Source: Tribonema minus
Lineage: Eukaryota > Sar > Xanthophyceae > Tribonematales > Tribonemataceae
Reading direction: 5' to 3'
Length of the DNA: 64,000 nucleotides
Assembly: GCA_017506865.1 (NCBI GenBank)
Contig: JAFCMP010000189.1
Coordinates: 31,268-95,267 of the forward strand
Part shown: piece by piece, positions 1-55,165 of the stretch
How positions within the stretch are numbered: the stretch's first letter is position 1
Layout of the letters: every line of letters begins with the position of its first letter
Notes under the pieces: generated by a model
The model's input: only the letters and a program-made list of their open reading frames with translations
What the model was told of the DNA's origin: nothing
The model's database searches: none
Made by a program: the position numbers and the translations under genes

Positions 1-3000
1 ATCGCGCCGCTGCCGCCCGCCGCCGCCGCCGCCAACGCCTTCTACCAGGACTGGGTGGTCGGCGGCGCGGTGGCGGCGATGGCGCTGCAGCGCGCGGCGC
101 GCGGCCACCTGGCGCGGCGGCGCGCGCAGCGGCTGCGCGCGTGGCGGCGCTGGCGCGCCGCGCTCGCGCGCCTCGTGTGCGTGCCGCTGCGCGTCGCCGC
201 ATGCGCCGCGGTGCTGCTGGCACGCCTCGAGCGGCGCCGTGCCGCGCGCGCCGTGATAGCGCGCCTCGTCTCCCTCTACCGCGCGCGCGCCGCTGCACGC
301 GCGCAGCTCGAACTCCTGCGTGCGCAGCGGCAAGGCGCCGTCGCCATGCAGCGCGCGCTGCGCGGCGCGGCGGCGCGGCGCGGCGCGGCGCGGCGGCGGC
401 GCGCCGTGCGCGCCTGGGGTCGGCTGGCGGCGCGGCTGCGGCGGCGGCGCGCAGCGCTGGCGCGGTGGCGCGCTGCGACGTGCGTCGTGCTGTGCGTGGT
501 GCGGCTGCGGCGGCGGCTGACGCGCGCGCGGCGGCGACTGGCGGGGCGGCGGCTGCGGAGGCAGGGGCGCGTGTGGGCGGCGCGCGCGGCGCTGCGGCGT
601 GCGCGCGCGGAGCGCCTGGAGCTGCGCCACAGGTGAGCTGGGCCGCGGTGATCAAAGATGGACAGGCTGTTGAGCATACCGTGCTTACACGAATAGATTG
701 GTCGTTGCTCAAAATGCTCCAGAATACTTGACGGATGGCCTTGTCCGAAGGCTGCGGCGCGCGCGCGCCGAGCGTCTGGAGCGGCGCCACAGGTGATCCT
801 GTTGATCGCAGTGATCGTGTTGGTCAACGAACGGACCATATTCTGCTTGCTGAATAGATCCACAATACTCCAGAATACTAGACTGATGAATTTGTTCAAA
901 GGCTGCGGCGCCTGAATGTGGAACGTCTGGAGCTGCGCCACAGGTGACTGTGCTGCGTTGGCATGCTGGCTCATGCGCCACTAGGGGTGGCGGTAGGGTT
1001 AGGGTTAGGGTTAGGGTTTTATGTCGGGGTGAGGATAAAGTGTTATGACTAGGCCACAGCTGCGGCGCGCGCGGACCAAGCGGCTGGAGCTGTGCCGCAG
1101 GCAACAGTGTCGCCTGTTGTCGAGAATGATGAACGGATGTGCGTCTGCCTTGCCCTCTGTGTTTGTCCACTTTGGAGGTGACATGCCGTCAGCAGCAGGC
1201 GCTGAAACTGTGCGCCTCTCCCTTGCCGCAGCCGTGGCATCGTGAAGTACAGCCACGCGGATGCGCAGCTGCACTTAGGGTTAAAATATCATAACGCTAA
1301 CCGTAACCCTACCCCTAACCCTCTGGTACCGCAAGCGCGCATGGCGCGTCAGCGGTGTGCCGAACTCAAAAGTTCACATACTGAACTCAAGAGTTCACAT
1401 GATGAACTCGAGAGTTCACTCTGGACTGCCCCCTGCCGCAACCCGCTCTTGTTTCCCCCGCCAGATCTGCAGCCGTGATACAGCGTGCGTGGCGCCGCCA
1501 CTACTGGTGGAAGTGGACGATCCGCGACGCGCTGAGCTCAACAGTTCACGCGCTGAACATGAAGTTCATGCTGAACTCGAGAGTTCACTCTGGTCTCCTG
1601 TCCCACATTCTTGATACAGATCCGCAGCAACAATACAGCGCGCGTGGCGCCGCCACTTCTGGTGGAAGTGGACCATCCGCGACGTGCGCCTGCGCGAGGC
1701 CGCGCACCAGTGCTGAACTCAAGAGTTCAAATGCTGGACTCGAAGTTCACATGCTGTACGCAATGGTTTTCGCACTTCTGCATCCTTTTCCCAGGTCCGC
1801 AGTGACCATACAGCGCGCGTGGCGCGCTGTCACTTCTGGTGGAAGTGGGCGATCCGCGACGTGTGCCTGCGCGAGGCGGCGCACCAGCGCTGACATACTG
1901 GACTTGAAGTTCACATGCACAACTTCAGAGTTTTTCGCACTTCTGCATGCTTGTTCCAGGTCTGCTGCGACCATACAGCGCGCGTGGCGCCGCCACTTCT
2001 GGTGGAAGTGGACCATCCGCGACGTGCGCCTAGTGGAAGCGGCGCACCAGCGCTGAAATCAAGAGTTCACATACTGGACTTGAAGTTCACATGCTGAACT
2101 CAAGAGTTTGCTTTTCTATATGCTTGTTCCAGGTCCGCGGCAATCATACAGCGCGCGTGGCGCCGCCACTTCTGGTGGAAGTGGACCATCCGCGACGTGC
2201 GCTTGCGCGAAGCCGCGCACCAGCGCTGGCGCATGGCGCTGAGCGCCATGCAGGCGCGCGTCGCGCGCTGGTGGCGCGTCCACCGCAAGTTGAAGTGGAC
2301 GAAGCTGGCGGCGCAGATGGCGAGCAGGCGACGCTCCGCGGCGACCGCCATACAGGCGCTGTACCGCGGGGGGAGGGGGCGCGCCGCGGCGGCGGCGCTT
2401 GCGAAGCGGCGCGCGAGGGCCAGGTCAGTACTTGTATTAGGGTTAGGGGTTGATGTTTGGGTTAGGACTATGGTTAGGGTTAGGGTAAGTGTTAGCGGTG
2501 CGACCGCATACAGGCGCTGTACCGCGGGGGGACGGGGCGCGCGGCGGCGGCGGCGCTTGCACGGCGGTGCGTGAGGGCCAGGTCAGTGCTAGGGTTAGGT
2601 TTAGGGTTAGGGCTAGGGTTAGGGTTAGGGTTATGACCGCCATACAGGCGCTGTGGGGGGAGGGGGCGCGCGCGGCGGCGGCGCTCGCGACGCGGCGCGC
2701 GAGAGCTAGGTCAGTGTTAGGGTTAGTCTAGGGCTAGGGTTTGGAATAGGGAAAGGTAAGGGTTATATGGTGAGGGTTACGACCGCTATCCAGGCGGGCG
2801 CAGGGGGCGCGCGGCGGCAGCGGCGCGCGCGAGGGGGCACGCGAGGGCCAGGTCAGTGCTCAGCGCCGTGATGAGTTGTGCGGTGCACACTTGCTGCAGA
2901 TACCCACATGTACCCTTACACTGACCTGTCACCAAAGCGGGGTTGCAGTAGATGCCACCGCGAGTGGAGAGCAACCTCGATCGCAAAAGCAGGCGAGGTC

Positions 3001-6000
3001 TGTGGGGCACTGAGCAGATGTACATCACATTTAGCATTTGCGCTGGGGTTGAAGTATACAGCTCTCAATCACCTCGACTACCAGCGGGGCGCAGACTATG
3101 TCACCAATCCCTGCCTGCACGTCTTCGTGACATACCATGCTCCGTGACCTCACCTGCTGCGGGTGCATCCAGCCTGCCTCCAACACCTCACCCGCCGCTT
3201 CAACTGCAGGTGCAGGTGGCGGCGGCTGTTCTGTCTGCACCGCAGTAGTAGTATCAAGGTACAAAGTGCATACTGGAGAAGGAGTGTTGCATTGAGTGCA
3301 CATCCAAAGAGAGGCCTTTTCGCGCCCCTGGCGAAGCAGAATAAATCAAAGTACATGCTGGGCTTTTCCGCACCCTGAGCGACAATTGACAAGAAGCACA
3401 TGCTTTCTCTGACCCTAACACCTTACCCGCCGCTTCAACCGCAGATGTAGGTGGCGGCGGCTGTACTGCCTGCACCGCAGTGTGCCCGACCCTGCTGCGT
3501 GGGCACGCGCGAGGCAGCACCTGGCGGCGGCGATGCGACGCTACAAGCGGCGGCGTGCGGCGACCTCCATTCAGGTAGGGTTGAAGTTCATTCACATAGG
3601 GCTTGAACTTTGCGCACTTCGTCTGCCTGGGCACGTGCGAGGCAGCACCTGGCGGCGGCGATGCGGCGCTGCAAGCGGCGGCGCGCGGCGACCGCCATTC
3701 AGGTAGGGTTGAAGTTTAAACATATGGGGTTTGAAGTTTGTTCACCAGGGCTGCGTGGGCGCATGCGAGGCAGCACCTGGCGGCGGCGATGCGGCGCTCC
3801 AAGAGGCGGCGCGCGGCAGCCTCTATTCAGGTGCATAGCCTAAATTCCATCGAGTTTAGGTTGTGCTGCATACAGAAGGCTAGTCCTTTGTCGAGGGTTC
3901 AAAATATATTTGGAAGGGTTGAAGCCAGTCCTGGCGGGGTTTGGATGTAGGGTTGAAGTTCAAGTGCATAGGGTTTGGCGTTTGTTCACCAAGTCTGTGT
4001 GGCCACCTGGCGGCGGCAATGCGGCGCTACAAGTGGCGCCACGTGGCTATTGCCATTCAGGTAGGGTTGAAGTGCACAGATGTTGTTCACCACGTCTGCA
4101 TGCGCGCGCGCACGGCAGCACCTGGCAGCTGCGATGCGGCGCTACACGAGGCGCCAAGTCAGGTAGTTTTGAACTTCATTGAGGCAGGGTTGCAATCAGT
4201 TGGCGGAGACTGTGTGGTGGATTAAAGGGGGGTGGAGCAAGTCCTGGCAGGGTTTGAGGTACGGTTTGTGAAGTTGAAGTTGACGTTCACGCACATAGGG
4301 TTTATATATTATTGTACCGAGTCTGCGTGGCCACCTGGCAGCGGCGATGCGGCGTTACAAGAGGCGGTGCGCGGCGACTGCTATTGAGGTAGGGTTGAAG
4401 TTTGCACTTGTAGGGTTTGAAGTTTGTTCACCACGTCTGCATAGGAGCGCGCGCGGCAGCACCTAGCGGCTGTGATACGGCGCTACAAGAGGCGTCGCGC
4501 GGCGACCGCCATGCAGGTAGGGTTGAAATTCACACGTATAGGGTTTGAAGTTTGCGGCAACCGCCATTCAGGCAGGATTGATCTCCGCTGAGTTATGGTT
4601 GCAGTGGTTGAGTAACCCTAACCCTAAGAATAATCCTGCTCCTACTGTAGCCCGACCCTCCATCTGAACTATACCGTGATTCTAAGTCCTTGTGGTTCGG
4701 GCACCTGTGCCGGTGACACGAAGAGCACATAACCCTAACCCGTACCCTTGCCCTAATCCTACCCTACTAGTACCCCCCGCTTACCCCGATTCAAACCCTT
4801 ACCCTAAATGTCTCCTTTGTGATGTATCCAGGCTCTGTGGCGTGGGCACCTGAATCGGCGACACGAAGAGCAGCGCCTGGCACAGCGCTACTGGGCGGCC
4901 GCCATTGTCACCCTACTAGTACCCCCTGCTTACCCCGATTCAAACCCTTACCCTAAATGTCTCCTTTGTGATGTATCCAGGCTCTGTGGCGTGGGCACCT
5001 GAATCGGCGACACGAAGAGCAGCGCCTGGCACAGCGCTACTGGGCGGCCGCCATTGTCATACAGCGCTACACGCGCGGGCACCTCGCGCGCGCTGGCACA
5101 TACGCACGCCTGCTGCATGAAGACAGGTGATGGTGAACTATGAGATTATATATGTATATATATACATATATATATGTATATATATATATATACAGCGTTA
5201 CACGCGCGGGCACCTCGCGCGCGCCGGTACATACGCTCATCTGCTGCACGAAGATAGGTGACGGTGAATAATTATAGTATGCATGTAGAAGTACTTTTTA
5301 GAAGTACTACTTCCCTACTGGTAATCCTAACTCCATCTAAGCCTCAAGCAGCACTGCTGGGCGGCCGCCATTGTCATACAACAGTACGCGCGTGGGCACC
5401 CCGCGCGCACTGGCACATATGCGCGCCTGCTTCATGAAGACAGGTAATGGTGAACTATGAGATCACATTATATCTATATATTCATGTACCAGTAGTAGAG
5501 ACGATGATCTGGCACGTACGCATGCCTGCTACACAAAGACAGGTGGTGGTGAAATAAGAAACGTGCCACAAGATAAGATACTTGCTGATTCTTGTTCAGG
5601 ACATAAATAAAATCTCCTACGTTCAAGTGAACGCTTTCATTATCAGGGTACAGCAGTCATGATGCATGCCCTACTGCTACCAGAGGACACCCGCACGCAC
5701 CGAATTGATCCAGACAGTCCCAGTGAGCATGAACTGAAAGACGCGATTCATGCACTGCTTGCCACAGGTGGCAACGATGAGACTGACCACCAATACTGCA
5801 AGCATTATCAATTATAGATATAACACAGCCCAGTTGTACCAGGGGGAGCTCACGCACTAACCACAGAAATCAACCTCAAGGATCGAGCCGTAACTGCCAC
5901 ATTCATGTGAAACTTCAGCTTCAAACTTCAACCCCCACGAGTCAGAGGTGCCGAGGTTGTGGCATCCCCTGAAGCGCCGGCACGCGAACTCCCCGCACGC

Positions 6001-12000: not shown

Positions 12001-13846
12001 AATACCTGCACCTGGCGTGCTTCTTCGGCATGCTCGACAGGCAGGGCATGCTGCGCTTCGCCTTCGGCCAGCTCGACCCCGCGCAGCGCCGCTACATCGA
12101 GCTGCCGGAGCTGGACATGCTGCTGCAGGTGAGACAGTTACACCTGACCCTGACCGTAACCCTAACCCAAACCCTAACCCAAACTCTAAACCTAACTCAA
12201 GAGCTGCCGGAGCTGGACATGCGGCTACAGGTGAGGCAGTTACACTTGACCCTAACCCTAACCTTCATCCTGACCCTAAGAGCTGCCGGAGCTGGATATG
12301 CTGCTGCAGGTGAGACAGTTGCACCTGACCCTAATGCTAACCCTCACCCTGAACCCCAGCCCCTGACCCTAACTCTAAACCTAACTCAAGAGCTGCCGGA
12401 GCTGGACGCGCTGCTGCAGGTGGAATCACAGTTACACCTGACCCCAACCCTAATCCTGACCCTAGACCCACCCCAGCCTAACCCTAACTCTAAACCTAAC
12501 CCAAGAGCTGCCGGAGCTGGACGCGATGCTGCAGGTGAAGCGATGTTTTGGCCCCACAACAACAAGTTTTGGGAGGCTTGAAATGTGCAAGAGCTCCCCC
12601 ATGTCGGGGGGCCACGAAGTCTACTGGCGGACATGATAGTATTGGCAGCTTCACTTACATGGTGTGTGAGCCACGCGAGGAACCACAGCCAAGACGACGA
12701 GGAGCGGAAAGAGAGGCACTTGATTCTAACCCTAATCCTAATCCCTGCTCTGACCTAGGGGTACGTGGCATGAAACGTTGCTGAGCTAGTCTTGCTGTCG
12801 GGATGGCACCGTTGGTGTGTTTTGGGCTCGCCTCAGACTTCTGTTGCCCCGCTGCTGCATCCTGCTCCCGTGACCATCCCCAGAATTTGACCGGCGATTG
12901 CCACCAGACCCTAAAAACTGACAACCAGTAGGGTTTACGAGCAAAATCACAGACGCACCACTGCAACTATTTGGTCTTCATGTGACAGACAACTGGGATA
13001 TTAGGGTTAGGGATAGGGTTAGGGTTAGGGTTAGGGTTAGGGTTACCCTAGCCCTGCGCTGGCATGACTCCGAGACTCGAAAAATGCTTCCGTGGCGCAT
13101 TCTCCTTACATATCCCCAACCGTGTCATCTTGCACATATTGTTATAGTGACCAGGTCGCATTGAAAATTGTCTGCGGCAGCATGCACTATTTGGTAGGCG
13201 GCACACGCCTTCTCACCACCCCGTCTGAGTTGACAGCACGTGTGCTGGAGGACTCGCAGTCGTAAAGGCCCCAAGGGAGGCCGGGTGCCCGCTGCACTTC
13301 TAGGGTGCGGTCTCATGCAGCAGCTTAAGCCGCCTTTATTAAACATCAGCAGTGCTACGCCTTGTCGTCTTGAAAGGTCTTTGCCCGATCGTGTCGCCCG
13401 ATTTGCTTACCTCATTTTGCGGCAAAAGTCCAGGTCACTTCCCTTCGCGACACAGGTGTTGATTCCTCTTCCAAAAAGAGGCGTCTGGGCCCCGATTCCG
13501 GCCATTTTTTTTTTTTGGAACGCCACAAACTGACTGACGGCCTGTCTCTGCACCATATTTCCCTGCAACTGTGTCACAGGGCGTGATCGAGGTCGAAAAG
13601 GACGGAGCGCTGCCCACGAGCTTCGCCGCGCAGGCGCGCGCGGGCTTCAAGCGCCACGCCAAATTCGGCACGCAGCTGGACTTTCCGGGGTTCGTCGCGC
13701 TGTGCCGCGCGTACCCGCGCGTGCCTTTCGTCCTGTACAGGCTGCAGACCAAGATTCAGCAGCGGAACCTGGGGGAGGCGTTCTGGGAGGGCAAGAAGGC
13801 GCAATTCGCTGAAGCGCGGAAGGCGCTTGGTATCGAGGTCATGTGA
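1..13846 (+). CDS. IQ-motif / EF-hand-like protein, 3' part (5' end outside window)
   Basis: Ten exons: 1-632, 2133-2423, 3481-3574, 4981-5126, 6519-6804, 7991-8323, 9274-9736, 11000-11276, 11960-12128, 13580-13846 (stop TGA). All junctions are GT-AG and every phase agrees, giving 985 residues with the N-terminus missing. Residues 20-480 are basic, with repeated calmodulin-binding IQ-like motifs, e.g. LQRAARGHLARRR, IIQRAWRRHFWWKW, IQALYRGGRG and VIQRYTRGHLARAG; one IQ is split by the exon 3/4 intron (SIQ|ALWRGHLNRR). Residues 480-600 are charged and helical (LMEAREAALEARHRR). Residues 595-750 form a globular domain starting EGLCELAFTVG. Residues 750-985 hold degenerate EF-hand-like segments (DETDYAGDSTIATF; LDPAQRRYIELPEL; LDFPGFVALCRAYPR). 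Known for such families: Ca2+/calmodulin-responsive cytoskeletal or ciliary scaffolds; the role here is inference. The EF loops lack several Ca2+ ligands. Almost every intron carries reiterated junctions, listed separately. Confidence 0.8.
740..1106 (+). repeat. Donor-junction copies of IQ gene exon 1 (3 copies)
   Basis: The end of exon 1 (gagcgcctggagctgcgc followed by cacag|gtgagc at 632) recurs at about 750-800, 898-948 and 1056-1105. Each copy keeps 30-45 nt of exon end; the first two keep cacag|gtga, while the third has lost its GT (cgcag|gcaac). They are separated by unrelated intron DNA, including a TTAGGG block at 990-1018. Confidence 0.75.
990..1018. repeat. Interstitial TTAGGG block (one of many)
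   Basis: Four to five TTAGGG-like units. Similar blocks occur at 2437-2500, 2590-2635, 8488-8512, 10872-10902, 13003-13048, 16596-16640, 18668-18705, 22808-22835, 22940-22975, 40003-40022 and 46296-46345. Nearly all lie in introns or junction-copy spacers. Both orientations occur. Confidence 0.9.
1461..2132 (+). repeat. Acceptor-junction copies of IQ gene exon 2 (4 copies, ~165 bp unit)
   Basis: Four tandem copies of the start of exon 2 (about 1461-1540, 1608-1717, 1788-1893, 1955-2056) precede the real exon at 2133. Each has a pyrimidine tract plus cag and then codes for a variant of IQRAWRRHFWWKWTIRD. Copies 3 and 4 keep caccagcgctga, an in-frame TGA exactly where the real exon reads caccagcgctgg. 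They would act as poison exons if spliced in. Confidence 0.85.
2484..2858 (+). repeat. Donor-junction copies of IQ gene exon 2 (3 copies) with TTAGGG spacers
   Basis: The exon 2 end (ataIQALYRGGRG segment, then gccag|gtcagt at 2423) is repeated at 2495-2590, 2634-2720 and 2780-2860. Each copy ends with gtcagtg. TTAGGG-like runs fill the gaps (2437-2500, 2590-2635, 2718-2745). Confidence 0.85.
3182..3245 (+). repeat. Acceptor-junction copy of IQ gene exon 3
   Basis: The intron end before exon 3 (3417-3480: cccgccgcttcaaccgcag, ggtggcggcggctgtact, tgcaccgcag) has an earlier copy at 3182-3245 that also ends in tgcaccgcag. Confidence 0.7.
3283..3362 (+). mobile_element. MITE-like dispersed repeat, copy 1
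   Basis: 3283-3362 is the reverse complement of 7186-7278, sharing ttcgcttcgccaggggcgcg-type and cctctctttggatgtg blocks across about 80 bp. Both copies lie in introns of the IQ gene, in opposite orientations. They carry no coding capacity. Confidence 0.65.
3600..4575 (+). repeat. Donor-junction copies of IQ gene exon 3 (6-7 copies)
   Basis: The exon 3 end (cacctggcggcggcgatgcg, then ccattcag|gtagggttgaag at 3574) recurs at 3619-3715, 3746-3835, 3985-4075, 4096-4170, 4321-4400 and 4433-4528, with a fragment at 4555-4575. Most keep cag|gtagggttga. Decay grows with distance from the real donor; one copy has ag changed to gag|gtaggg, others have stops. Confidence 0.85.
4761..5059 (+). repeat. 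Near-identical 149-bp tandem duplication across an acceptor site
   Basis: 4761-4910 and 4910-5059 match with one visible mismatch (ccccccgc versus cccctgct in the early part). The unit spans the intron end, the acceptor tgtatccag and the first 75-80 nt of exon 4. The downstream copy runs on into the rest of the exon. An older, decayed copy of the same exon start lies near 4690-4730. Confidence 0.95.
5140..5545 (+). repeat. Donor-junction copies of IQ gene exon 4 (3 copies) plus TA microsatellite
   Basis: Copies of the exon 4 end (cacctcgcgcgcgctggcac through gaagacag|gtgatgg) lie at 5193-5275, 5346-5455 and 5510-5550. A TA-rich microsatellite (about 5140-5192) separates the real donor at 5126 from the first copy. 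Confidence 0.8.
5940..6360 (+). repeat. Acceptor-junction copies of IQ gene exon 5 (about 3)
   Basis: Degenerate copies of the exon 5 start (gtgcgccaagatcgtggc, then cgcatgcagcgcctcgcg) occur near 5946-6008, 6141-6175 and 6262-6345. The last is the best preserved, with ctccag before it. The true acceptor is at 6518. Confidence 0.7.
7186..7278 (-). mobile_element. MITE-like dispersed repeat, copy 2
   Basis: This is the inverted partner of 3283-3362: gcgcgaaaagccctctctttggatgtgc-gctcaatgcaacacccc. The core gggcgcgaaaa(a)gccc also stands alone at 15488-15506, 17186-17205, 17273-17292 and 17440-17456, which suggests a small family with a hairpin-forming core. Confidence 0.6.
7618..7885 (+). repeat. 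Acceptor-junction copies of IQ gene exon 6 (2 copies, ~180 bp unit)
   Basis: The exon 6 start (ttcag|gcgcagcgcctggc, then gcgcgccacaggcg) occurs at 7629-7692 and 7812-7883 before the real exon at 7991. Both copies keep ttcag and translate to close variants of LMEAREAALEARHRR, then diverge after gccacaggcg. Confidence 0.85.
8366..8635 (+). repeat. Donor-junction copies of IQ gene exon 6 (2 copies)
   Basis: The exon 6 end (ctgctgagcaat, then accaggcggcgagcaccacg, cag|gtgagg) recurs at about 8370-8440 and 8578-8640, each with an intact cag|gtgag. Confidence 0.75.
8730..9135 (+). repeat. Acceptor-junction copies of IQ gene exon 7 (3 copies)
   Basis: Copies of the exon 7 start (gcgagctggccttcacggtc region) lie at 8735-8795, 8846-8955 and 9050-9130. 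The 8858 copy follows gcgcagg and the 9050 copy follows aagg. Each runs 60-100 nt into exon sequence and then switches to intron-like CTAACC or CTTCAAC DNA. Confidence 0.8.
9823..10346 (+). repeat. Donor-junction copies of IQ gene exon 7 (3-4 copies)
   Basis: The exon 7 end (gctgcacgccgcggggtacg to tggctgcccaccccag|gtatg) recurs at 9826-9925, 10033-10095, 10166-10270 and, as a fragment, near 10325-10348. In two copies the donor is gccag|gcatg, so GT has become GC. Confidence 0.85.
10435..10845 (+). repeat. Acceptor-junction copies of IQ gene exon 8 (4 copies)
   Basis: The acceptor region cttgcaaccgcag|gcaccacg-cagcaggggttc (true site 10999/11000) is repeated near 10430-10472, 10548-10592, 10695-10735 and 10800-10845. 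All keep gcaggcaccg, and three keep cagcaggggttc. Confidence 0.8.
11340..11465 (+). repeat. Weak donor-junction copies of IQ gene exon 8
   Basis: The exon 8 donor context (ttcag|gtgcggttgcagcgca at 11276) is echoed at 11346-11375 (tcaggtgcgttggagcgcag) and more weakly near 11430-11462. Intron 8 also holds an exon 9 acceptor copy at about 11796-11832 (gtcaacgcgggcgccaaagg). Confidence 0.5.
12129..12540 (+). repeat. Donor-junction array of IQ gene exon 9 with CCCTAA spacers (4 copies)
   Basis: The segment gagctgccggagctggacat-gctgctgcag|gtgag (true donor at 12128) is repeated at 12200-12240, 12279-12320, 12389-12425 and 12504-12540. The spacers are almost pure CCCTAA-type repeat (CCCTAACCCAAAC and similar), about 70-115 bp per unit. 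The arrangement is regular, exon tag then telomere-like run, and the array stays open in one reading frame for long stretches. Confidence 0.9.
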
Positions 13847-17900: not shown

Positions 17901-20900
17901 CAGCTTTGTAGCGCATGCACATTTGTGGTCTTTGAATTTACCTGCCCCCCTGGTTTGCACCCAGGCGTGCGGTTGCTACAGGCAGCCAAAGCCAGGCGGG
18001 TAAGGCAGAGCCTTGCATCAACATACTTCGAAGTATGTGAAATCGCGCAAAAGTGAAGTCTGAAACTTCAAGTTACCTGCCCCCCTGCGCCGCCTGCCCC
18101 TGCGCCCCCTGCACCTTGACCAGTCCCCAGAGCCCTGCAATTGTGACAAAAGCAGCAGTACTCCTTGGTCAGGCCGAAAAGTGCGTGTTTCAGGCTACTC
18201 ATGCTGCTGCATAATACCAGATTTGACAGCTGTCAGAGGCAGCCTTCAGCATTCAGTGGCGACCGGGAAACAACATTTATGGTTTTGCTTGGCACCCCCG
18301 ACCATTTTGCTCAGCTTCAAATTGAAGCTGTTAAAGACAGGGCGGTGCAACGTAAACAAACTGGGAATCACATGCGAGCTCGAGCAGTCAGCTAGCAAGC
18401 CCCCAATTGGCGATCTCATGATGAAAGCAGTTGCTGCATACATGTACGTGTGATAACTTCAAAGGGCTCCGTCAACAAGAGGTCCATGTACTTCAAATAT
18501 GTCGAATCATCTGTCCACCCAACTCAACCGAGTCCGTACGCGCATTCAACAGGCATCGCCGCAACATCGCTGCTGAACACTCAGCAAGCTTGAATATTTT
18601 TTTTCCACGGCCAAACAGCAGCGACAATGAGGTCGGCGTGGTGGCTTGCAACGAAAGAAGGCAGCCTAACACCCTAACCCTAACCCTAGCTTTAACCCTG
18701 AACAAAACCCCCACCTAGCAGGTCAGAAAATGCATGTGTAGCTAGCAACTGACGGTCAATTGAGGCACACCATGCAAACTTCACGCAAACGCAAGTCTTC
18801 TGAGGTGGCGCGTCATCGCTCAGCAACCTCAGCATGTGCTGCTCTCTTAAACCAAAAGCGGCGTTTCAGATCCCGTGATTACGGTCCGATGTGCTTCAGC
18901 GAGTGTAGTGATGCAAATTGAAGTACGACTCTCGCACAACTGACTCTCGCACACTCACCTGATCATGTTGATGATGTGCTGCGCTGCTTATGGTATGACG
19001 TGCTACAGCAAGGATCATTATGTGCCTTGAAGTGCGGGCAAGCAGAGCATCAAGATGTAATCGAAGTTTGACTCTTGAAGTTTTCACCTGATCATGTTGG
19101 TGAGGCTGTCCCCCTCTGCAGGGGGGGCACTGGGGGGGTTGTCCCCCAGGCACTGCGTAACGGTCTTTGCGAGCTGTTCGTCCTGCGAGCAACAGCCAAT
19201 GGTTGTAGCACACAAAAGAATATTAAATACGTTTACAGTTGTGAGTGTTACAGTATAAAGAAGACTGTTTGTCCTGCGAGCAACAGCCAATGGTTGCAGC
19301 ACACGAATATGAGATAAATACTTGTACAGTTGTGAGTGTTACTGTACAATAAAGAGAACACACCTCCATTACGTTATTTGCACATGACATGAAATATGCA
19401 CGTTCGCTCGGCCTGCCAGCGGCATTCGGTGCCGGTGATGTGTAGCATATGCGTGTCAGTGAAAGTGCACTTTGAAGAAGACGCACACGTGGATCATTTG
19501 GAACACAAAATGTGCGCGCTGTCCCTGAGGTGCGCTCAATTCACGCGCATGAACTCACACCCGTGAAAACACTGCCTCACTGATTCACTCATCTGCCATG
19601 TCGGTAGAATAAAACAGCACAGCACAGCTACACGCGTGCACGAAAATCGCCTGCGGCTGCAATGATCACAACAACAAAAGTCGTTTTTTGTCTCACACCG
19701 GAAAGAGCGCCAACGCATGCTCCCAAGTATTGTTTTTACAGGACACTATCATACTTGGCGTCACTTGAAAGGTTTTGGCACGGGCGACAGAATCAAACAA
19801 ATATTTTTCAAGCTTAACGGTTCAGCTCAGCTGCTCTTGTTTTGCCAGTGGTTTTGCAAACCGCGCCACCCTTGGAAAGGTTGCAGATTTGGGTGTATGG
19901 TGTGGACGAGGTCAACTCGCGACCAACCCTGAATCTATCCAACAAAATCTGCCCTCGTTTTTTTAATGAAAAAACGTGTCGTGTTCAGCCTCATCTTGTT
20001 TTGTTTGACTTTCCATTCACGTACGACGCTTGTTGTAGAGAGATGCTTGTTTTAGAGGGATATGCTGCTGCCAGAGGCCTGCGCTCCGAACAAAAATCTT
20101 CACAAGGCAAGGGGCATGTGCTGTGTTCCGCAAAACAGAAGGTTTCATAATGGAATTAGTGCGTTATCGTCAAGAAGCTCCCCATTCTTTCAATGTAATG
20201 TTGGTGACTCACAATGTGCTCTATGTACCTCGTTTCAGAATGCTTCTCTTCAACTTCATGCTGGTGCAACAGTCGAAGATCGCCGTTGCTGCCAACAATG
20301 ATACTGGAGTTGGCCAAGCAGTTGCACCACAGGACTTTAATATTTAACTTGTATACTCCAGCGCTACATGTGGCAGCGCCAAAGAACTGTAAACTTCATT
20401 TATGACTTCAACTTTAAGCACTTTCTAAGTAGCGCTACATACATACCTGGGTGGCAGCTGCGCCAAAGAACTGTAAACTTCAACTATGACTTCAAGTCTT
20501 TGTACTCTAGCGCTGCATACATACCTTGGTGGCGTCCTTGTCTTGCATCCAGTAGAAGAACCTCCTGGCCGAGTTCTTGACCTGTAAGAATCCGCATACA
20601 GTGGTATAGAAGCGCGTCAAGGCATTGATGACTTGAATATGAAAAAAGCAAACAAACGGCCAGGCACTCGAAACAGTCTTTGATATGAGTCAGTGCTCAA
20701 ATTGTACCCGCGGACTTCCACAAATTACGGCATGGCTGAGCTCAAGACAATGCTCATCATAACATGGAAACCAATCAAAACAGCGTAGAGCTCTGGGTGA
20801 CAAGGCCTGGTTAGCCGCAAGTACCTTACACCAAAGACCGTGACGTAACGGTGTGCAGCGCGGGGCAGCGTCGCGTTGCTGACGACTTGATTGCATGAAG

Positions 20901-35400: not shown

Positions 35401-38400
35401 GTCACTGGTTATCATCATCGCCAGCGCGCAGGGCTCGAATGAAACTATTACCACAACGCATGTCACCTGCGACGGCACGACAAGACAACGGTGTCGCTTG
35501 CGATAACCTTGTCCGTCAAAGTGTTTTCATTGATTGTGTGTCAAGCAGGAGCAGCACAACAACATGTGAACTTCCGATGATCTTAATCAGCAACTCCTTC
35601 TGAATGGTGCTTGGATTTGTTATTTAGCCCAAGCACTTGTGGCAAGTGTAAGCCTCTGTTGAGCATGTGCTGTGCGTTTCTCCGGCACACTACACTCAAA
35701 TGAAACTGTCACCAGATGGAACTGTCACCACAACGCGTGTCAGCTGCATCAATCACAAGAGCAGCTGAACAACAACATGTGACCTGCAGCAAGGTTGGAC
35801 ATCAACTCTTCATGAGTGCTGTGCCATGTGCGAATGAAACTATCGCCACAAGTTGAACTCACCACTTGCTCGGAGGGGTATGTATCTCTTGTCGCTGCAG
35901 CGGGTGCTCGTTGCCGCTTGCGCCCTATGCAATTATTTCTGAGATACTTGGGATAATTTGAAAGTTTGAGAAACACATACTTCAAGTTGAACTCACCACT
36001 TGCTTGGAGGGGTATGTATCTGTTGTCGCTGGGGTGGGCGCTCGTTGCCGCTTGCGCCCTAAGCAAACATTTCCAAAATACTTAGAATACTTTGCATTAT
36101 GAGGATGTGAGTATCAACGTGCTACATGCTCGTATAATTTTCAGGTTTCGCCCGCAACACCACCATTAACTATGAGGAAGAACGCCATGCCTTCATATAA
36201 GATCTGCTGCTCGTATTAAAAATGTACTTCAAGTTGAACTTACCACTTGCTCGGAGGGGTATGTATCTGTTGTCGCTGCGGCGGGCGCTCGTTGCCGCTT
36301 GCGCCCGGGGCTGGCATGTGCTACAGTTGCGCCCCCGCCGAAAAGATTGCCAGCCCACCTGAACGTAATGAATCCCATGGGGCGAGTTTTTTTGTAGGGG
36401 CAAAAAAGGGGGGTGAGGCGCCAGTAACATGTGGATAAAACAAGGGTGGGGTGCATTGATGTTTGAGCCACTTTAGCTCAACTAACACCAACATGAGGAG
36501 CCTGTGGCGGCAGATGCTGTTACGGCAGCCTCCGCAACCGTTCAACTTTTCAGATTGCCAGCCCACCTGAACGCGCAGCAAAACCGGCCCTTGAAGTAGG
36601 GCATGCACTGAATCACACATATGTCGCAGCATACAGCAGAAGGGTCCATGTGGTCACAGCACAGGAGGGCATGCACTCAATCACACATATGGTACAAGTT
36701 ATGCATTCAGCGCCCTGGGCTGGCATGCGCTACGGCTGTGCCCCCGCCAAACAGATTGCCAGCCCACCTGAGCCGCAGCAAAACGGGCACTTGTGAGAAC
36801 AGCACCGCCGGTATCAAAGCTCTCAGGGCGCAGTGCAGACTAGGCCGCTGCGTTGAAGCAAACTTCTCGACTGCATAGGCAACCCTGCCTCCCTTGGGCC
36901 TTTATAAACATAAGCCCATAAGTACAGCACCGGGGGGCGTGTACGTACGTACTGAACAGCACACGGCGCTGTTCAGCTGGCTCGGCATGCTACAGCCTAA
37001 ACCTAACCCAAACCCCTACTTCTAACCCTAGCCCCAATCCTAACCCTATTCATATGGAGAACGCACTGACATGGCTACTGTTTCTTCAATTATAGGTTGC
37101 AGTTATCAACCTGCTCAGAATGCTGCAGCCATTGGCATCAATCAGCATGAGCACGACCTTTGGCTAGATGTGTTCGACTTCCAGGTATTTCAAACCATCA
37201 CACTGTTGCAGGCGCAGCTTCATGTACACATTGTAATGCAACACAGACTGCCTCGACCCTCCGTAAGCGAATGAGTCCATGAATGCAGCGTGCACAACAG
37301 TACACAGAGCAACTTAGGATGAGGGGTAAAAGGCTGCTGTACCGCATTTTTCTGGCACAAGACTAATAAGAACATAGAGAATTTGGCACATGGTCCTGCA
37401 AATTCAGCCCACGTTGGGGCTGCTCAGACGAAATCTTGAGTACACACACAGTACAGTACACAGTACAGTACACACCTGGACTGTCCCTCTTCTACAATTG
37501 ACGACGGCGCATGTGAGCCCACGTGGTGCCCACCATTCAGGGTGCAGCACACAGTACAGTACAGTACAGTACAGCACAGTACAGTACACAGTACAGTACA
37601 CACCTGGACTGCCCCTCTTCTACGACGGACGGCGGCGTATGTGAGCCCACGTGGTGCCCCCCACTCGAGGTGCAGCACCCCTTGCACTCCTCCTCGGGGA
37701 GGAGCATCGCCGCTGCCGCGGATTTTGAAACTTGAAGTTGGAGTTGAAGTGCAAGCTTCTCCGGCCTGATGACGATTGCCAGCTGATAATGCCCCTGTTG
37801 CAGTGGCACCAACCGAAGGGTGTAAAGTTTCAGTTTATGTGTGATGAGTCAGTGCCCCATGGAAGGCACACCATTGAACGGGAACTGGTTATTCGCAGTT
37901 TGCTTCTGGAAGGCACACCATTGAACGGGAACTGGTTATTCGCAGTTTGCTTCTGTGGAGCAGCCCGGCAGGTGATCACCGCCTGCAAGATGAGTAGCAA
38001 GCTGTGGACGCGACACCAATAAAGCACACAGTAACAATGACAGTAGTGATAGTGGTCATGACTCGCTGACTCAAATCTGACTCACCCTGGGGGCAGTGGC
38101 CTGCGACAGCAGTTTCAGGCTTCGTAAGACGACTCAGATTGCTCACTCGCATCTGACACACCGCCGGTTCCGTGGCTGCTGACTCAGCAAATTGAATCTA
38201 CTCTGATGACTCAACCCTGACTCACCGACTCGCTGGCTGGCTGCGGCAGCTTGTGAGCATCAAAGTAGCATCCGTCCATCAGGGTTTCAAACACGCAGCC
38301 AAACAACACAGAGCACTGTCACCCTGACTCGTTGACTTGACCTGGCTCACTCACTTGGAGGCTGCGAAGCTACACCGTTTTTCGGGAAGCACTGCCGCTC

Positions 38401-43800: not shown

Positions 43801-46800
43801 GCACATTCTTGAAGTTGCCGCAAGCGCGAGCGCGCTCTTCACTAACTGACGCCTTGAGCACAGCACCATTGCAAGACAAGTGCTCGGGGCGCGATTTGCG
43901 GCAAGGAAGGCGCGCGCATTTGTGTGCTGACCTTTCGAGCATGGTGGACGTGCTGTGACGCGCGTTGCTGGTGGAGAGGTGGGCCATGGTGGAATTTCTG
44001 CAAAACGCACAGCAGCAGCAGCAAGGGCCACAGCGAGCAACGCATCTACATAAGTTCGCACTGTCATCAGAGATTCACAGCCAGCACGAGAAGCGATCTC
44101 GGGGCATGCGCTAGCAACGTGCATGCGCTGTCGGGATGGCGGTTGGGATGTGGTTGACACAGCAGCGCTCAGCACATGTTGAGGTGGGCCATGGTGGAAT
44201 TTCTGCAAAACGCACAACAGCAGCGGCAAGCCACAGTGAGCAACGCAGCTACGTTTGCACTCTCAGCAGGGATTCGCAGGCAACACAAGCATGTGCTTCT
44301 TTTTTCCTTTTGGACGGGAAGCGCGAAACGCACAGCAGCAGCAGCAAGGGCCACAGCGAGCAACGCACCTAAGTTCGCACTGTCATCAGAGATTCACAGG
44401 CAGCACAGAGGCGTTCTCGGGCCGTGCGCTGACGGCGTGCATGCGCTGTCGGGATGGCGGGTCGGGATGTGATTGACACAGCAGCGCTCAGCACATGTTG
44501 AGGTTGGCTTCCCATGACCACTGGTGACGTGCCGCATCAGACAGGTTTTGGTCACATCAATCAAGGTCTTGGGTAACCTTGCTACAGCGGCCTCTGTTGG
44601 AGGGAAACGGGCCTGCCATACTGTTTTCCATTTGTCCCTGAACTTTAACATGGCTGTCGGGGCGACATGCGGGCTTGGGGGGTTGACGGAGGCGCTACGC
44701 ACACGTTGAGGTTCGCCCTTCCATGAACACTGGTGACCTGCCGCATCAAACGCTTTCTGCCAGTTCCAACAACGTCGCGGATGTCTTCGCTGCAGCGACC
44801 TCTGCTGGAGGAAAACGAGCAGCCTAGTCTTCTCCTCCTGCCCCTCAACTTCAACTTGAACTTGAGGTTGAACTTCAACTTGAGCTTGAGGCTCACCGTC
44901 TTTGCCCAAGCGGACGCAGGTGCTTGTCCAGGTACATCGGGTCCACGTCCCAGAGCAGCTGCGAGCGATGGCAGCGATCACCGCAGAGCATAATAAGCGT
45001 TAAGGCTGTGTTTTGTTGCAGGTAAGGATGAGAGTTGAGGTAGGCTTAGATTTGGCCATACGGGAACGATAGAGAGGGAAGTGCCCTTCCGCAACTGAGC
45101 CATTCCCTAATCCCGGCCCCCCAGGTCCAATGAACAAAGGGTCAAATGCAAGCTGGTACCCTTTCCCAAACCAGTACATCAGCTCCATGTCCCAGAGCAG
45201 CTGCGAGCGATGGCAGCGATCAGCACAGAGCACCTTTGGCGTGAAAAGTATGCATAGATATTGAATTGCGTTAAGATTACAGGTAGAGGTACGGTGCGGC
45301 GTGTTACAGGATTGAGTATCAGCGTCGCTCGCAGCTGCTTTGTACTGCGTCCCAGAGCAGTTGCAAGCGATGGCGGTGATCAGCACATACAGCCATCAGT
45401 GATGAGGGCTGGTATAGGTATAGATTTGCGCTAGGATTAAGGTAGATGTGGGGTAAGGCGCTACACGGGGACGACAATCAGCGTGCAACGTGCAGGTTTA
45501 GAATACAGAGTCGTTTGCGACAAAGCGTTGGATTCCCGGTTCAGTAGAGATCATCTGGGCTTGGTCGCATGCAGCGCCGCCGCGGCCGCTATGACATCGG
45601 ATGCCATACCTGCATACCCATGGTCCTGTGCACACAGGAGCAAACATCATTCACCAAAGACCATTCTCAGGGTTAGACTTAGGGTTAGCCAACTTCCGGC
45701 ACGTCTTTGCGAGCCCCACCAATACTGCGTCTGACCCTTAGTCTGCCCCTCACCCATACTCTAACCCTAACCCGCCCAATCAGCATAGCATCTGCAAGCC
45801 TCAAGCTGAGCTATTTTCCAACCCTGACCCTGGCCCTCGATCAAATGAGCACAGGGTAAAATGCGAGCCTTTGCCCTTGCCCTAGCCCTTTCCAAGCCCT
45901 AGACGACGAGCGCGCATAACCTCATCGCAACCCTCATCCTACAAACGCGCGGCGCCCGAACCTGCACCGTGCAGCGCACGCTGCATTCCAGAAGCAGTTG
46001 CATGACCACTGCCTGTCCTGCGCGCAGCACCGTAAAGGCGCCGTAAACCCATGCCCTAACTCTGTAACCCCACAAGCGCGCAAAGCCGCAACTGCACCGT
46101 AAACCCCAACCCTGACCCTGACCCTGACTCAAACCTAACCCTACAAGCGCGCAGCTGCACGCACACACAGCACGCCCCGCACAGCACTGCTGCCCCTGAA
46201 CCTGACCCATACTGTGCCGTTCGCCCAACCCACGCCTGTGAGCACGCACAGCTGCACCTGCACCGTGCAGCGGGGGGCGCTGCAGTCGAACAGCTTGGTT
46301 AGGCTAACCCTAACCCTAACGCTAACCCTAACCCTCCACGCTCGACGCTGCTGCCGCCACGCGCCCCCTCACGACCAACCCCATCCCTAAGGCCACACCT
46401 GGTCAGCATAGCATCAAACTCATGCCTACCCCAAAAACCTAATCCCCTTTTCTGAGCCCTAGCCCTACTCAAGGCGACGAGCGCGGATAGCCTCAAACCC
46501 TAGCCCTAACCTAACCCTATGCGTGTGCGGCAAGCGCACCTACACTGTGCACCAGGTACATTGCAGTTAAGCAGCAGCTGCATGGCCACCGCCCGCCCCG
46601 CGCGCGGCACCATAACCCTAGTCCTTAGCCTGGCTCTGTAACCCTACAAGCGTGAAAGCCGCAACTGCACCGTGCAGCACCGTGTCCCTCACCTACCCCG
46701 TATACTGTTGTTCTCCTGACCCGTTGACCCCTACCGCTACGGGCCCACCTGCACCGTGCAGCGGACGCTGGAGTCAAGCAGCAGCTGCGCCCCCACCGCC

Positions 46801-48347
46801 CGCCCCCCCCGCGCACGGCACCGCCGCCGCCACGTGGCCCCCCTTAAGACCAAACCCCAACCCCAAGGTCACACCACCCGGTCAGCATCGCATCAAACTC
46901 ACCCTTACCCCTAACCCTAACCCTACGAGCGCACCTGCACCGTGCACCGGACGCTGCAGCTACGCGCCCCCTTGCAACCAACCCCAACCCTACGGCCACA
47001 CGCGGTCAGCATAGCACCAAACTCAACCCCCCCCCCCCGCGCGTCGCCACCCCCCTAATCCCTACCCCTACAAGCGAACCTGCACCGTACAGCGCACGCT
47101 GCAGTCCAGCTGCAGCTGCACCCCCACCGCCCGCCCCGCACCACACCTGGTCGGGCATAGCATCAAACTCAAGCCTACGCCTACACCTAACACCCCCCCC
47201 CCCCCCCCCCCATTACTCCCTTCCCCCACAAGCGCACCTGCACTGTACACCGCACGCTGCAGTCCAGCAGCAGCTGCACCCCCACCGCCCGCCCCCCCGC
47301 GCGCGGCACCGCCGCCGCCACGCGCCCCCCCCCGCGCCCCGCCCCCAGCGACAGCCTGTGCCAGTTTCCGCCGCTCCTGGGGTTAGCGTTGGGGCTAGGG
47401 TTACCGGCGACACTGCTCCGCGAGCTCCCCACGCCCGCCGCCGCTGCCGCCGCCGCCGCCACCATCGCCAGCGCTGCCGGCGACTGAGGGGATGTGGCGT
47501 GGGGGGGGTGGGGGGAGGAGGAGAGGTGGGGGGACGCCGCCCCCCCCTGGAGGCCGGGGTAGGTGTCCTGGGTGGTGGCGCGCACGCTTGCTTGCCTGCG
47601 CCGCGCAGCGGGGGCAGTCGAGAGGTGAAATGTTGAAGTTGGAGGTTGATGTCGCAAAGTACAGCATGCATGCATCAACTGTCTGATTGATCATTAGGGG
47701 CGTAGGACGACCAGCCTGTCGCGTACGGTTTCCACGATTGCCTTCGCGCCAGTACCACGCCCAAGTCAAGTGCTGGGCCGCCTGGGCGCGTCTGCGCCTA
47801 ACCCTTACCCTACCCCTGAGCACACGCAACGCTCAGCAGCAGGCGCGCGCGCGGTTCGTCGTACCCATTGCCAGCAGGTCTCCCACAGTGGGGTTGGGGT
47901 CAGAGGGGAGCGTTCCCTTCAGACACACACGCGCCTGTTGCGTGATACTGCTAAGAGTGCCCTACGCGTGCGCGTCGCCTGCTACTACTGAGACTCGCAG
48001 TGCTGGCTCCCGCACCGACGCTGGCACCTTGAAGCGACACGAATCACGCACCCAACCACAACTCAGGGTGAGGGTCGGCGGGGCCGCGCGCGTGACTGCC
48101 AGCGCGCAAGAGTAAAGCCACATGCCTTCGTGTACGCGCAACGCAGGCGCGGCGCCTGAACAAGACTCACCTGACCATGGCCGGCAGCGCCGCGCGCGCG
48201 ACCGGCTTGGGCGGGTGCGCCTGACGCGTGTGGACGAGCGCCTGCAGGTGGTTGCGCGCGAGGGGGCGCAGGATGGCCACGCGGTGCCCCAGACCGCGCA
48301 GCGCGACGATGCGCCGCGTTTCCAGCGCCGCGCGCAGCCCGCACACC
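40836..48347 (-). CDS. Unrecognised multi-exon gene (partial model)
   Basis: Exon-like segments, judged by splice signals, junction copies and open frames, in transcript order: 48171-48347, 47865-47947, 47727-47781, 47238-47595, 44897-44958, 44738-44804, 43932-43997, 42995-43072, 41672-41876, 40836-40938. Phases agree for the first five (AILRPLARNHLQALVHTRQA; LPSDPNPTVGDLLAMG; VGVQLLLDCSVRCTVQ; LLWDVDPMYLDKHLRPLG). They also agree among the last five if read WNWQKAFDAAEIPPWPTSP, NTLLIRLLRPKCPFALLPC, RTGKFTWCTLLLKCCTRF and TGA at 40836. The phase does not match between 44897 and 44804, so an exon edge is wrong there, or there are two genes. An ATG in a good context (ccaccatgg, 43987) opens another frame. 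The N-terminal exon is not found. No family recognised. Confidence 0.4.
40945..41062 (-). repeat. Acceptor-junction copies of orphan gene last exon (2 copies)
   Basis: Minus-strand aagtgcag|caggggg-cgatgagtgcctggtccggt at about 41010-41060 and 40965-41008 repeats the start of the last exon (aagtgcag|cagggggctacggag, 40938). Confidence 0.75.
42095..42355 (-). repeat. Acceptor-junction copies of orphan gene exon at 41672-41876
   Basis: Copies at 42110-42165 and 42258-42352 repeat the exon start tgaataccttgctcattcga-ctgctgcgaccgaaatgcc and the preceding gcgtcaagcggc intron end. One copy has tcatttgac, an in-frame stop in the exon's EYLAHSTAATE frame. Confidence 0.75.
42395..42990 (-). repeat. 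Donor-junction array of orphan gene exon at 42995-43072 (5 or more copies)
   Basis: The exon end (cgacacagtgctcagcag|gtgcgtcagcgct) recurs near 42750-42800 (the best copy, 50 nt of exon kept), 42840-42865, 42905-42935, 42595-42620 and 42405-42420. The spacers are gagcgctgactc/gagcactca repeats. Confidence 0.85.
43580..43620 (-). repeat. Donor-junction copy of orphan gene exon at 43932-43997
   Basis: Minus-strand catggtgcttgacag|gtcagcgc repeats ccatgctcgaaag|gtcagcac (true donor at 43932). Confidence 0.6.
44170..44510 (-). repeat. Acceptor-junction copies of orphan gene exon at 43932-43997 (3 copies)
   Basis: gttttgcag|aaattccaccatggcccacc is repeated at 44176-44215 with the same tgctgctgtgcgttttgcag context. 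The flanking ctgtgaatctctgatgacag and gcagcagcag blocks recur at 44320-44400 and 44480-44510. Confidence 0.8.
44515..44650 (-). repeat. Junction copy of orphan gene exon at 44738-44804
   Basis: Minus-strand tttccctccaacagaggccg-ctgtagc, with ctgatgcggcacgtcaccag at its other end, is a decayed copy of the whole exon and both its junctions. The donor G is mutated (cac|gtcacc instead of cag|gtcacc). Confidence 0.75.
45165..45390 (-). repeat. Acceptor-junction copies of orphan gene exon at 44897-44958 (2 copies)
   Basis: gctgccatcgctcgcag|ctgctctgggac (true site at 44958) is repeated at 45180-45230 and 45340-45385. Confidence 0.85.
45945..47160 (-). repeat. Donor-junction array of orphan gene exon at 47238-47595 (~8 copies)
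   Basis: The exon end (ggtgggggtgcagctgctgc, tggactgcagcgtgcggtgt, acagtgcag|gtgcg) recurs near 45955-46012, 46150-46180, 46250-46285, 46520-46610, 46660-46690, 46745-46815, 46925-46975 and 47075-47145. CCCTAA-type DNA fills the gaps. Confidence 0.85.
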
Positions 48348-49100: not shown

Positions 49101-49615
49101 TATTTGGCCGACAATTAGACTGTAACCGACATCAATAGCGCGCGCAGTGCTCGGCACACACCATAACTATGGACCTCAGAGCCATGAACATGCACGTCGC
49201 GGCTGACGCGTCCACGGCGTGCTGGTATGTACGGTATGTAGTACGCACGGGTGTGTACGTATGTGTCGATGCGGGCCAGGTGGCGACGCAGCAGCGATGT
49301 CGCCCGCTACTTCGAGTGCAGAAGCGCATCCTGTAGCTTCAACTTTGTTGATACCGATTTCTATTGCGCTGACCCCAGCTGAAGCGGGTAGCATCATCTA
49401 TGCTCCGTTACCAGGCAGTCCAAGCAGGCGTGCCTTGTTCAGAGATGTGCGGCAAAGGTCCATCAAGATTACATTACATTGAGGTGCTCAGGGTATGTAT
49501 GCCTATACCTATACCTACCTACTCCACCTCCAGCCAAAGCTCAGCTGCTGCCGCTGAGTCGACGCCTGTGCGCTGACTACTGCGTCTGTAACCCTTACCC
49601 TAATTTCAGCCCTCG

Positions 49616-54000: not shown

Positions 54001-55165
54001 TACCTCCTCAGGGGCATCGAAGACGCCATTGCCGACGCCACAGGCGCCCCTGGCGTGTCAGATCGTCCGTTACTAACCCTCCCACAGGGGGTCCAATCGC
54101 TGGCAGCAGCGCTTGCCCCCCTGGTCCTCGAGCTCAACGCCGGCGCCAACCCTAGGTCTGGCATCGCCTACCGAGGGTTTGAAGTTGGGTGCACGGCGCT
54201 GTTTCTGCCGACGCCGCATGGACACTTCCTCGCGTTCAACGTCGGTGCGCCGAACCACTTTTTGGCGCGCGAAAGCGCGCAGCTGATTGGCCACGACCCG
54301 CACTTCACCGAGTTCTACATCCTCGGCCGCGTCGTGCAGATTGAGGTGAGGCCGAGAGTGTATAACTTTGCTATAAGTTACTGTTATGATGCTAATTACT
54401 ATGTAGTATTATGGACACGTCCTCGCGTTCAACGTTGGCGCGCCGAACCACTTTCTGGCGCGTGAGAGCGCGCAGCTGATTGGCCACGACCCGCACTTCA
54501 CCGAGTTCTACATTCTGGGGCGCGTCGTGCAGATCGAGGTGAGGCCGACTGTGTACGCTTTGCTATAGGTACTGTTGAAACAATACTACTGTTACCGTTG
54601 TAAACAATACTAAATACTTCAGAAGTACTACTGTTGTAAACGTTTTAGAGTGGTACTGAGTGTGCATTTAGGCACAAAACCTGCACTTCACCATTGCGCC
54701 GGAGCTGGAAGCAGACAGGCCGGCCTTGAGTAGAGATGATGACACTTGACGGCGAATATTGCATGTTATGGTGTTGACTGCACGCGCCTCAAGCACAGGG
54801 TAGGCATGTATACCACTGCTAGTGCACGGCGGTCCTGCTGCGCGGGCACCGACACACATTCACTGGCTCTCTCTCTCCCTCTGCCAATCGCTGCTGCGTC
54901 ACAACAGTGCACCGACTCAACACTCACAGGCTCTCCCTCTGTCATTGCTCCACAGCAGTGCACCGACACAACACTCACTGGCTCTCCCTCTGTCATTGCT
55001 GCTGCGTTACAGCGGCGGACCGCAACAAACGGCAGCGGCGTCGGCAGCGACCACTACCAGCTGCCTCGTGGCTGCGACTACGCCGTCCTCACGGTGATGG
55101 CCGTCTCAGCGGAGTGCACGCCGCCAACGCTGCTGCTGCCGCCACGCGCTGCCAGTGTGTGCTGA
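51017..55165 (+). CDS. ATG11: ATG11/FIP200-type autophagy scaffold (C-terminal claw)
   Basis: Four exons: 51017-51231 (ATG in tcatcatgga), 51721-52900, 53983-54345, 55013-55165 (TGA). Phases agree; 636 residues. The acidic N-terminus (AESDSEPDEGWLSV) is followed by long poly-Ala, poly-Gln and Pro runs in exon 2, then a coiled coil at residues 420-465 (RRRAERAEEERDALRK) continuing into exon 3. Residues 505-620 match the ATG11/RB1CC1 C-terminal claw: GHFLAFNVGAPNHFLARESA, FTEFYILGRVVQIE and then YQLPRGCDYAVLTVMAV, paralleling plant ATG11 (LAFN..CPNYFL..ES; SYIVGQIVHIE; LP.GCEYFVVTVAM). Known role: scaffolds the Atg1/ULK1 kinase and binds selective autophagy receptors through the claw. It is much shorter than typical ATG11 (about 1100 aa), with most of the coiled coil absent. 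An extra exon in 52.9-53.98 kb is possible. Confidence 0.7.
52975..53185 (+). repeat. ATG11: Donor-junction copies of ATG11-like exon 2 (2 copies)
   Basis: The exon 2 end (gtcgaggaggaacgggatgc-type, then gctgcgcaag|gtgaggttg) recurs at 53036-53095 almost exactly and more weakly at 53135-53180. Confidence 0.8.
53948..53965 (+). repeat. C18 homopolymer, part of a splice acceptor tract
   Basis: 18 C residues, then acaacctatcccatcag|gaatctg, the acceptor of ATG11-like exon 3. This is the second acceptor in the window with a homopolymer C tract. Confidence 0.85.
54405..54560 (+). repeat. ATG11: Donor-junction copy of ATG11-like exon 3 (about 130 nt of the claw exon)
   Basis: 54415-54560 repeats 54220-54365: ggacac-tcctcgcgttcaacg through gtcgtgcagat-gag|gtgaggccga. 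Few differences are seen, so the copy is young. It keeps an open frame across LAFNVGAPNHFLARESAQLI. Confidence 0.9.
54850..55012 (+). repeat. ATG11: Acceptor-junction copies of ATG11-like exon 4 (2 extra, 51-54 bp unit)
   Basis: The intron end accgacacaacactcactgg-ctctccctctgtcattgctg...cag occurs three times in a row (about 54850-54907, 54908-54957, 54960-55012). The real exon begins at 55013. Confidence 0.85.

Follow-up and report, generated by a model that had tools for sequence, protein, structure and literature searches.

Ordinary genes of the ochrophyte alga Tribonema minus probably show what Hron et al. (2026) named "sequence stuttering", including "exon stuttering", in which an exon edge, its splice site and the adjoining intron recur as imperfect copies within the flanking intron. 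We examined a stretch of 64,000 nucleotides (the window; bases 31268-95267 of contig JAFCMP010000189.1, here C189) together with genes sampled from the 158 Mb genome, represented by one assembly of 554 contigs. A first-pass annotation of window positions 1-55165 had proposed that DNA spanning donors and acceptors is reiterated there, always on the intron side of the true site. The copying of exon edges into their own introns is real, and it extends beyond the window to unrelated genes of the same genome.

Outside the window, two unrelated and conserved families, dynein heavy chains (AAA1 domain, PF12774) and the chaperonin CCT (PF00118), were picked by Pfam alone. There were 59 dynein and 56 CCT exon matches, and loci were examined for 30 of each. 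Splice sites were set by aligning several protein templates to the DNA with a purpose-built spliced aligner, and support was needed from at least two templates for dynein (two to four per gene piece) or three of nine for CCT. Among those nine, five were concatenated matches from these same genes, which may pull some CCT borders. The closest named protein relatives belong to stramenopiles: CCT-alpha is 94% identical to a EukProt transcriptome entry, 82% to Ectocarpus, 81% to an entry with the truncated label "Vauche" and 78% to Chrysoparadoxa, and for one dynein template the identity to Aureococcus is 70% across 48% of the template. GC-AG introns (e.g. AAG/GCAAGT, the slash marking the splice site) recur in both sets. 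Rows with implausible or conflicting sites were removed by eye before counting (6 of 64 dynein and 6 of 47 CCT introns), and 58 dynein and 41 CCT introns, 99 together, were scored.

In a rank test, each 50-bp exon edge was matched to its own flanking intron and, for comparison, to all introns of other genes. The final 50 bp of the exon were best matched in the exon's own downstream intron in 23 of 99 cases and the first 50 bp in its own upstream intron in 20 of 99, with 1.05 expected for each, while the wrong-side controls gave 3/75 and 3/75 (0.8 expected). Dynein exon segments lying 50-100 bp from the edge scored 1/35 and 2/35, and those at 100-150 bp 0/28 and 1/28. A boundary-free CCT test yielded 8/30 and 12/30 against 0/30 and 0/30 on the wrong side, with 1/29 and 3/29 for exon middles. 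At least one junction-spanning copy was present in 33 of the 99 introns. The enrichment of exon-end copies in own over other introns, which the first-pass annotation had named as a check, is therefore borne out by these two families; its statement that almost every junction is affected went too far, the proportion in dynein and CCT being about one in five.

Within window positions 1-55165, self-BLASTN detected 35 local direct-repeat arrays, amounting to 25.7% of that sequence. Non-local repeats comprised only 4 distant direct pairs in this part and 4 inverted pairs in the window; with other self-BLASTN settings the whole window gave 113 local pairs against 10 others, 6 of these inverted. A 401-bp DNA query of the genome matched solely the window's own contig. 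Most window genes in array regions have no homology to set exon limits, and splice-junction positions are fixed by homology only in Rpn13 (Pru domain, PF04683, E 7.1e-6, above cut-off) and in ATG11 (PF10377, E 2.6e-8, the match ending at 54345). The relevant features are:

25279..25407, minus strand, Rpn13 exon 1, from ATG to donor GAG/GTGAGT (translation and splice motif)
22000..22089, minus strand, Rpn13 exon 2 of 30 codons, exon end at 22000, true donor CTGCAG/GTCAGT (Pfam PF04683)
21662..21895, minus strand, four intronic copies of the Rpn13 exon 2 donor (self-comparison)
20525..20581, minus strand, Rpn13 exon 3 of 19 codons, true donor ACCAAG/GTATGT (Pru domain continued)
20373..20455, minus strand, single copy of the Rpn13 exon 3 donor region, site at 20438-20455 (self-comparison)
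54157..54345, plus strand, ATG11-domain exon piece, true donor CAGATTGAG/GTGAGG (Pfam PF10377)
54411..54576, plus strand, intronic copy of the ATG11 exon end and donor (CAGATCGAG/GTGAGG), 193 bp downstream (self-comparison)

The copies of the Rpn13 exon 2 donor read CTGCAG/GTCAG at 21689-21699, 21825-21835 and 21855-21865 and CTGTAG/GTCAG at 21885-21895; the most distant of them lies within the best copy, a 74-bp match (21662-21735) with 89% identity to the true junction. The identity of Rpn13 rests on the exon 2 Pru match; the Pfam match of exon 3 is weak (E 0.073, under cut-off) and a PDB search with exon 1 gave no match. The exon 1 donor and the two Rpn13 acceptors lie inside none of the 35 arrays. 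Thus, where homology sets the junctions of the window, intron-side copies occur at three of four donors (Rpn13 exons 2 and 3, ATG11) and at neither of two acceptors. The cases lie on the minus (Rpn13) and the plus strand (ATG11), in agreement with the claim that both strands are affected. In both genes the frame compatible with the conserved domain stops at the outermost site. The two ATG11 copies (54218-54576) carry 10 differences, 9 of them apparently silent by reading of the alignment, and perhaps both were coding for some time.

Of 56 repeat events recorded in the 99 introns of the two families, 42 span a junction (23 at a donor, 19 at an acceptor), 11 lie wholly within the intron and 3 touch the exon edge alone. 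To say that the copying always involves a junction would hence be too strong. The 38 junction events with an offset of at most 260 bp have a median unit of 148 bp and an exon part of 47 bp (median; maximum 112 bp), and across the 99 introns repeat copies take up 22% of the sequence. The offsets of local pairs across 188 kb peak at 120-200 bp, short units being harder to detect. A 40-bp exon probe found one copy at 30 junctions and 2 to 8 copies at 12; among the latter the nearest copy was the best in just 6, the farthest in 2 and neither in 4. Decay increasing away from the true site, as had been claimed, is therefore at most a weak gradient. At one CCT acceptor on contig C135, five intronic copies of the exon start retain 93-100% identity over the probe, and their intron parts differ strongly.

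Introns with at least one event exceed the others in length (median 681 vs 397 bp, P=3e-8), a difference to be read with the caveat that longer introns give repeats more room to be detected. They are also GC-richer (0.551 vs 0.521, P=0.003), as are the exon ends beside them (0.648 vs 0.611, P=0.001). Events are clustered by gene (41 of 99 introns with any event, permutation P<2e-4), and some gene pieces are affected in all scored introns (3/3, 3/3 and 2/2). The only over-represented intron words are poly-C and AGGGTTAGG.

Differences between exon and copy, counted by codon position over 25 dynein junction events, number 33, 40 and 70 at positions 1, 2 and 3 (about 415 sites each), and 7 of 9 indels in these events shift the frame. 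The dynein copies decay as non-coding DNA, and changes in the exon itself are mostly silent. In the two families together, GT or GC is kept in 22 of 23 donor copies, and 16 of 18 anchored acceptor copies retain AG, one further acceptor case being too poorly anchored; the claim that the copies keep their splice signal is upheld. This retention is by our own estimate about what a frozen true site predicts, and we claim no selection on the copied sites. Three donor copies have GC where the true site has GT. Protein alignment shows that the conserved protein is continuous if the outermost splice site is used, which agrees with the first-pass annotation and suggests that this site is the one in use.

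We propose that GC-rich genes undergo local tandem duplication, mostly of about 60-250 bp, which would arise through replication or break repair; direct copies far exceed inverted ones, which argues against templated insertion. Many of the repeats would, as in the events counted here, take in an exon edge, its splice site and the adjoining intron. Judged by protein homology, the outermost site would be used, leaving the copy inside the intron and the protein unchanged, and the instability would be tolerated because this site is still used. The copies would then decay like non-coding DNA, as the dynein events do, and at some junctions (12 of 198) would build up to 2 to 8. Gene conversion against the frozen exon may in addition homogenise the copies. 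The net result would be lengthened introns. The earlier idea that silent duplications lengthen introns thus draws support from the non-coding decay and from the length difference, the latter being open in part to detection bias.

Several observations weigh against this explanation. Two gene pieces are free of events, with 0 of 10 and 0 of 7 introns affected (C235:869577-877857 and C537:42140-47147). Another C235 gene is affected in 2 of 6 introns, and other dyneins are affected too, so the rate varies gene by gene. Among 13 pairs at least 93% identical only one is a clean tandem pair; in the remaining 12 the alignment is shorter than the offset, some being non-adjacent copies of arrays and some having a non-repeated spacer between the members, which speaks against plain tandem duplication, as this yields no spacer at birth. 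Long target-site duplication by insertion was considered for the spacer pairs of high identity and not adopted, the spacers not having been compared genome-wide. Moreover, divergence from the original is only 0.115 in the exon-derived part of the copies but 0.313 in the 40 bp of intron next to it, on a scale where unrelated sequence gives 0.449; the ratio is 2.7, neutral simulation gives about 1.6, and 38 of 42 events lie above the neutral expectation (P=8e-10). One of the 42 is poorly anchored (C279_40916), and where copies form an array the one compared may not be the nearest. The contrast needs either a 2 to 2.5-fold faster decay of introns or gene conversion from the exon. In simulation, such faster decay reproduces the divergences and not the share of events at junctions.

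The junction share is the last of these points. As a null model, uniform tandem duplication with neutral decay was simulated and detected through the same BLAST procedure, giving junction-spanning shares of 54%, of 52-55% under four age models and of 49-52% under three intron rates. The observed 42 of 56 exceeds these (P=0.0016 against 55%). A first placement null, with 9.8 or 14.4 of 31 expected, was too low and was replaced by the simulations, which make the junction excess smaller. The unit remainders were also aligned globally with gaps, a procedure discarded as too permissive for interpretation.

The excess is the chief argument for junction-targeted copying, in which breaks or template switches would be focused at exon-intron borders by a nucleosome edge, a GC step or an R-loop, making the exon edge with its splice site the preferred source. 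The exon share of the unit also lies below simulation (mean 0.36 vs 0.45, KS P=0.008), the offsets peak as described, and some pairs of top identity end 5-9 bp beyond the exon at a donor. On the other side stand the 11 intron-only events; by family the share is 25 of 31 in dynein and 17 of 25 in CCT, the P value above being for both together. Furthermore, an exon copy cannot be deleted, so, should large deletions matter, the lifetime of a pair that includes one may be as much as doubled; with this two-fold advantage the neutral share rises to about 70% (our own arithmetic, not simulated) and the junction excess is no longer clear. Junction targeting is therefore unproven: deletion turnover could close the gap, neutrality is still compatible with the data, and we regard targeting as a possible, rather doubtful, alternative to untargeted stuttering. 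A wider version, in which borders act as hot spots from algae to birds, duplication beginning preferentially at junctions, the exon re-seeding its copies by one-way gene conversion and introns being slowly lengthened, is more speculative still.

It is unlikely that the copies are functional, as decoy or alternative exon edges under selection. The 38 of 41 anchored copies with retained splice sites, the lower divergence of the exon part and the 9 of 10 ATG11 copy differences that are silent by reading of the alignment would all suit such a role; however, codon positions 1 and 2 of the dynein events change as in non-coding copies, most of their indels are frame-shifting, and the splice-site retention is by our estimate about that predicted from a frozen true site. 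Tandem exon duplication, providing alternative or constitutive extra exons, has very little to recommend it, although the IQ and ATG11 copies could code for an intact peptide: wrong-side copies, its expected product, are limited to the 3/75 and 3/75 of the rank test and to 0 of 60 in the boundary-free test, and in the dynein events 7 of 9 indels break the frame.

Introners are known from stramenopile relatives. Still, an origin of these repeats by introner transposons, or by intron birth through tandem duplication of an AGGT-containing segment as mentioned in the first-pass annotation, is hardly credible, since in none of the 56 events do the two copies lie one over the donor and one over the acceptor, the similarity of exon edges is to their own intron rather than to introns of other genes, and positions 1-55165 of the window hold just 4 distant direct pairs, no genome-wide comparison of introns having been made. 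Introners, AGGT intron birth and whole-exon duplication were thus all tested and are disfavoured by geometry, wrong-side counts and distant-repeat counts.

The serial reiteration of junctions had been taken for undescribed, a claim overtaken by Hron et al. (2026; GBE evag038, PMC12954441), who report sequence and exon stuttering in chicken. There, imperfect tandem repeats in chicken introns sometimes include the lateral part of an exon with the donor or acceptor, and affect 236 introns of 115 genes, 190 of the 236 introns being on dot chromosomes. The exon part measures 20-187 bp and an expansion has 1-44 copies (median 4); the stuttered introns vary extensively in length among individuals and are linked to GC-rich genes. 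The likeness to the alga lies in local imperfect repeats restricted to introns, with purely intronic arrays alongside, in intact exons, in exon-edge fragments of similar length (13-115 bp in the alga) copied with the splice site to flanking and not to distant introns, and in the association with GC-rich genes, which is an association and not strictly defining. The differences are that the algal genes are housekeeping genes on many contigs and the chicken introns lie mostly on dot microchromosomes, that an affected junction in the alga mostly has one copy, up to 8, and that variation among individuals is reported for chicken, the alga being represented by one assembly. Stuttering in introns of GC-rich genes, as in the alga, is also remarked by Hron et al. 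for extremely GC-rich gerbil genes (of Hargreaves et al. 2017), as "data not shown".

Tandem duplication involving introns or splice signals is further reported as intron gain by internal tandem duplication in the potato RdRp gene (PMC4974935) and in Drosophila (PMC2891723); those cases reportedly concern newly gained introns or intron positions, whereas in the alga existing introns are lengthened and the geometry of intron birth is absent. Rogers and Bendich (2025; PMC11782384) describe direct repeats of 4-30 bp near intron splice sites, which they interpret as insertion scars; these come from comparing both borders of an intron, while the algal repeats are mostly longer and involve one border with a partner within the intron. 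A literature search for the stuttering terms found Hron et al. (2026) alone, and among the papers listed by other searches none describes the phenomenon in algae; as coverage of the literature was partial, this does not show its absence from print.

The phenomenon is thus already described in birds, and the new element here is a stramenopile in which unrelated housekeeping genes are affected, along with the codon-position evidence for the copies as relics and a quantified, still unproven, junction excess. This instability received its name no earlier than 2026, on the basis of bird dot chromosomes with a remark on a few GC-rich gerbil genes, and may be more widespread. If general, it would lengthen introns without the help of a transposon and leave spare splice sites strewn through them, and a protist might serve for its study. 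Since it is tied to GC-rich exon ends in two lineages far apart, its cause can be put to the test. At C51:21979-22639 Pfam lists one and the same CCT exon start as three successive matches (profile positions 52-88, 53-81 and 51-147), so gene finders may mistake intronic copies for exons.

Other arrays of the window lie in regions where homology does not set the junctions:

1359..2228, plus strand, array at the IQ-motif exon, copies at about 1637, 1812, 1977 and 2150 with 165-175 bp spacing
4761..5059, plus strand, youngest clean tandem duplication, 149 bp x 2, 99% identity
12099..12541, plus strand, array with GAGCTGCCGGAGCTGGAC copies at 12099, 12201, 12390 and 12505 (self-BLASTN)
34539..35557, strand not assigned, large local repeat array near the sub-cut-off RING match
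45901..47331, strand not assigned, large local repeat array, no minus-strand Pfam match there

Pfam gave an IQ-type motif match in the window, and each copy in the IQ array has a CAG acceptor-like site, which suggests that these are acceptor copies. Both copies of the 149-bp duplication contain the acceptor-like ATCCAG/GCTCTG (motif starts 4826 and 4975). The array at 12099..12541 has donor-like CAG/GTGAGACAG copies at 12126 and 12307, with CCCTAA runs in between. Among the gene names assigned earlier, Pfam agrees with IQ, Rpn13 and ATG11; the RING match falls under its curated cut-off.

Telomere-like TTAGGG/CCCTAA runs occur in the window at 994-1018, 2437-2633, 4730-4956, 8488-9157, 12157-12488, 13001-13045, 18665-18699 and 46304-46335, and are present in introns of other loci too. 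Their density in introns is high, with 23 runs in 54 kb, compared with a single one in 13 kb of internal exon. The 188 kb contain 74 testable runs, whose tie to flanking repeats is weak (25/74 vs 179/888 controls, P=0.011; outside the window 8/35 vs 52/420, P=0.11), and because of this weak association they were not adopted as break filler. Finally, positions 57546-63548 of the window (plus strand) hold 2000 codons without a stop, rich in Ala, Gln, Gly and Ser and with many trinucleotide repeats, a putative coding region.

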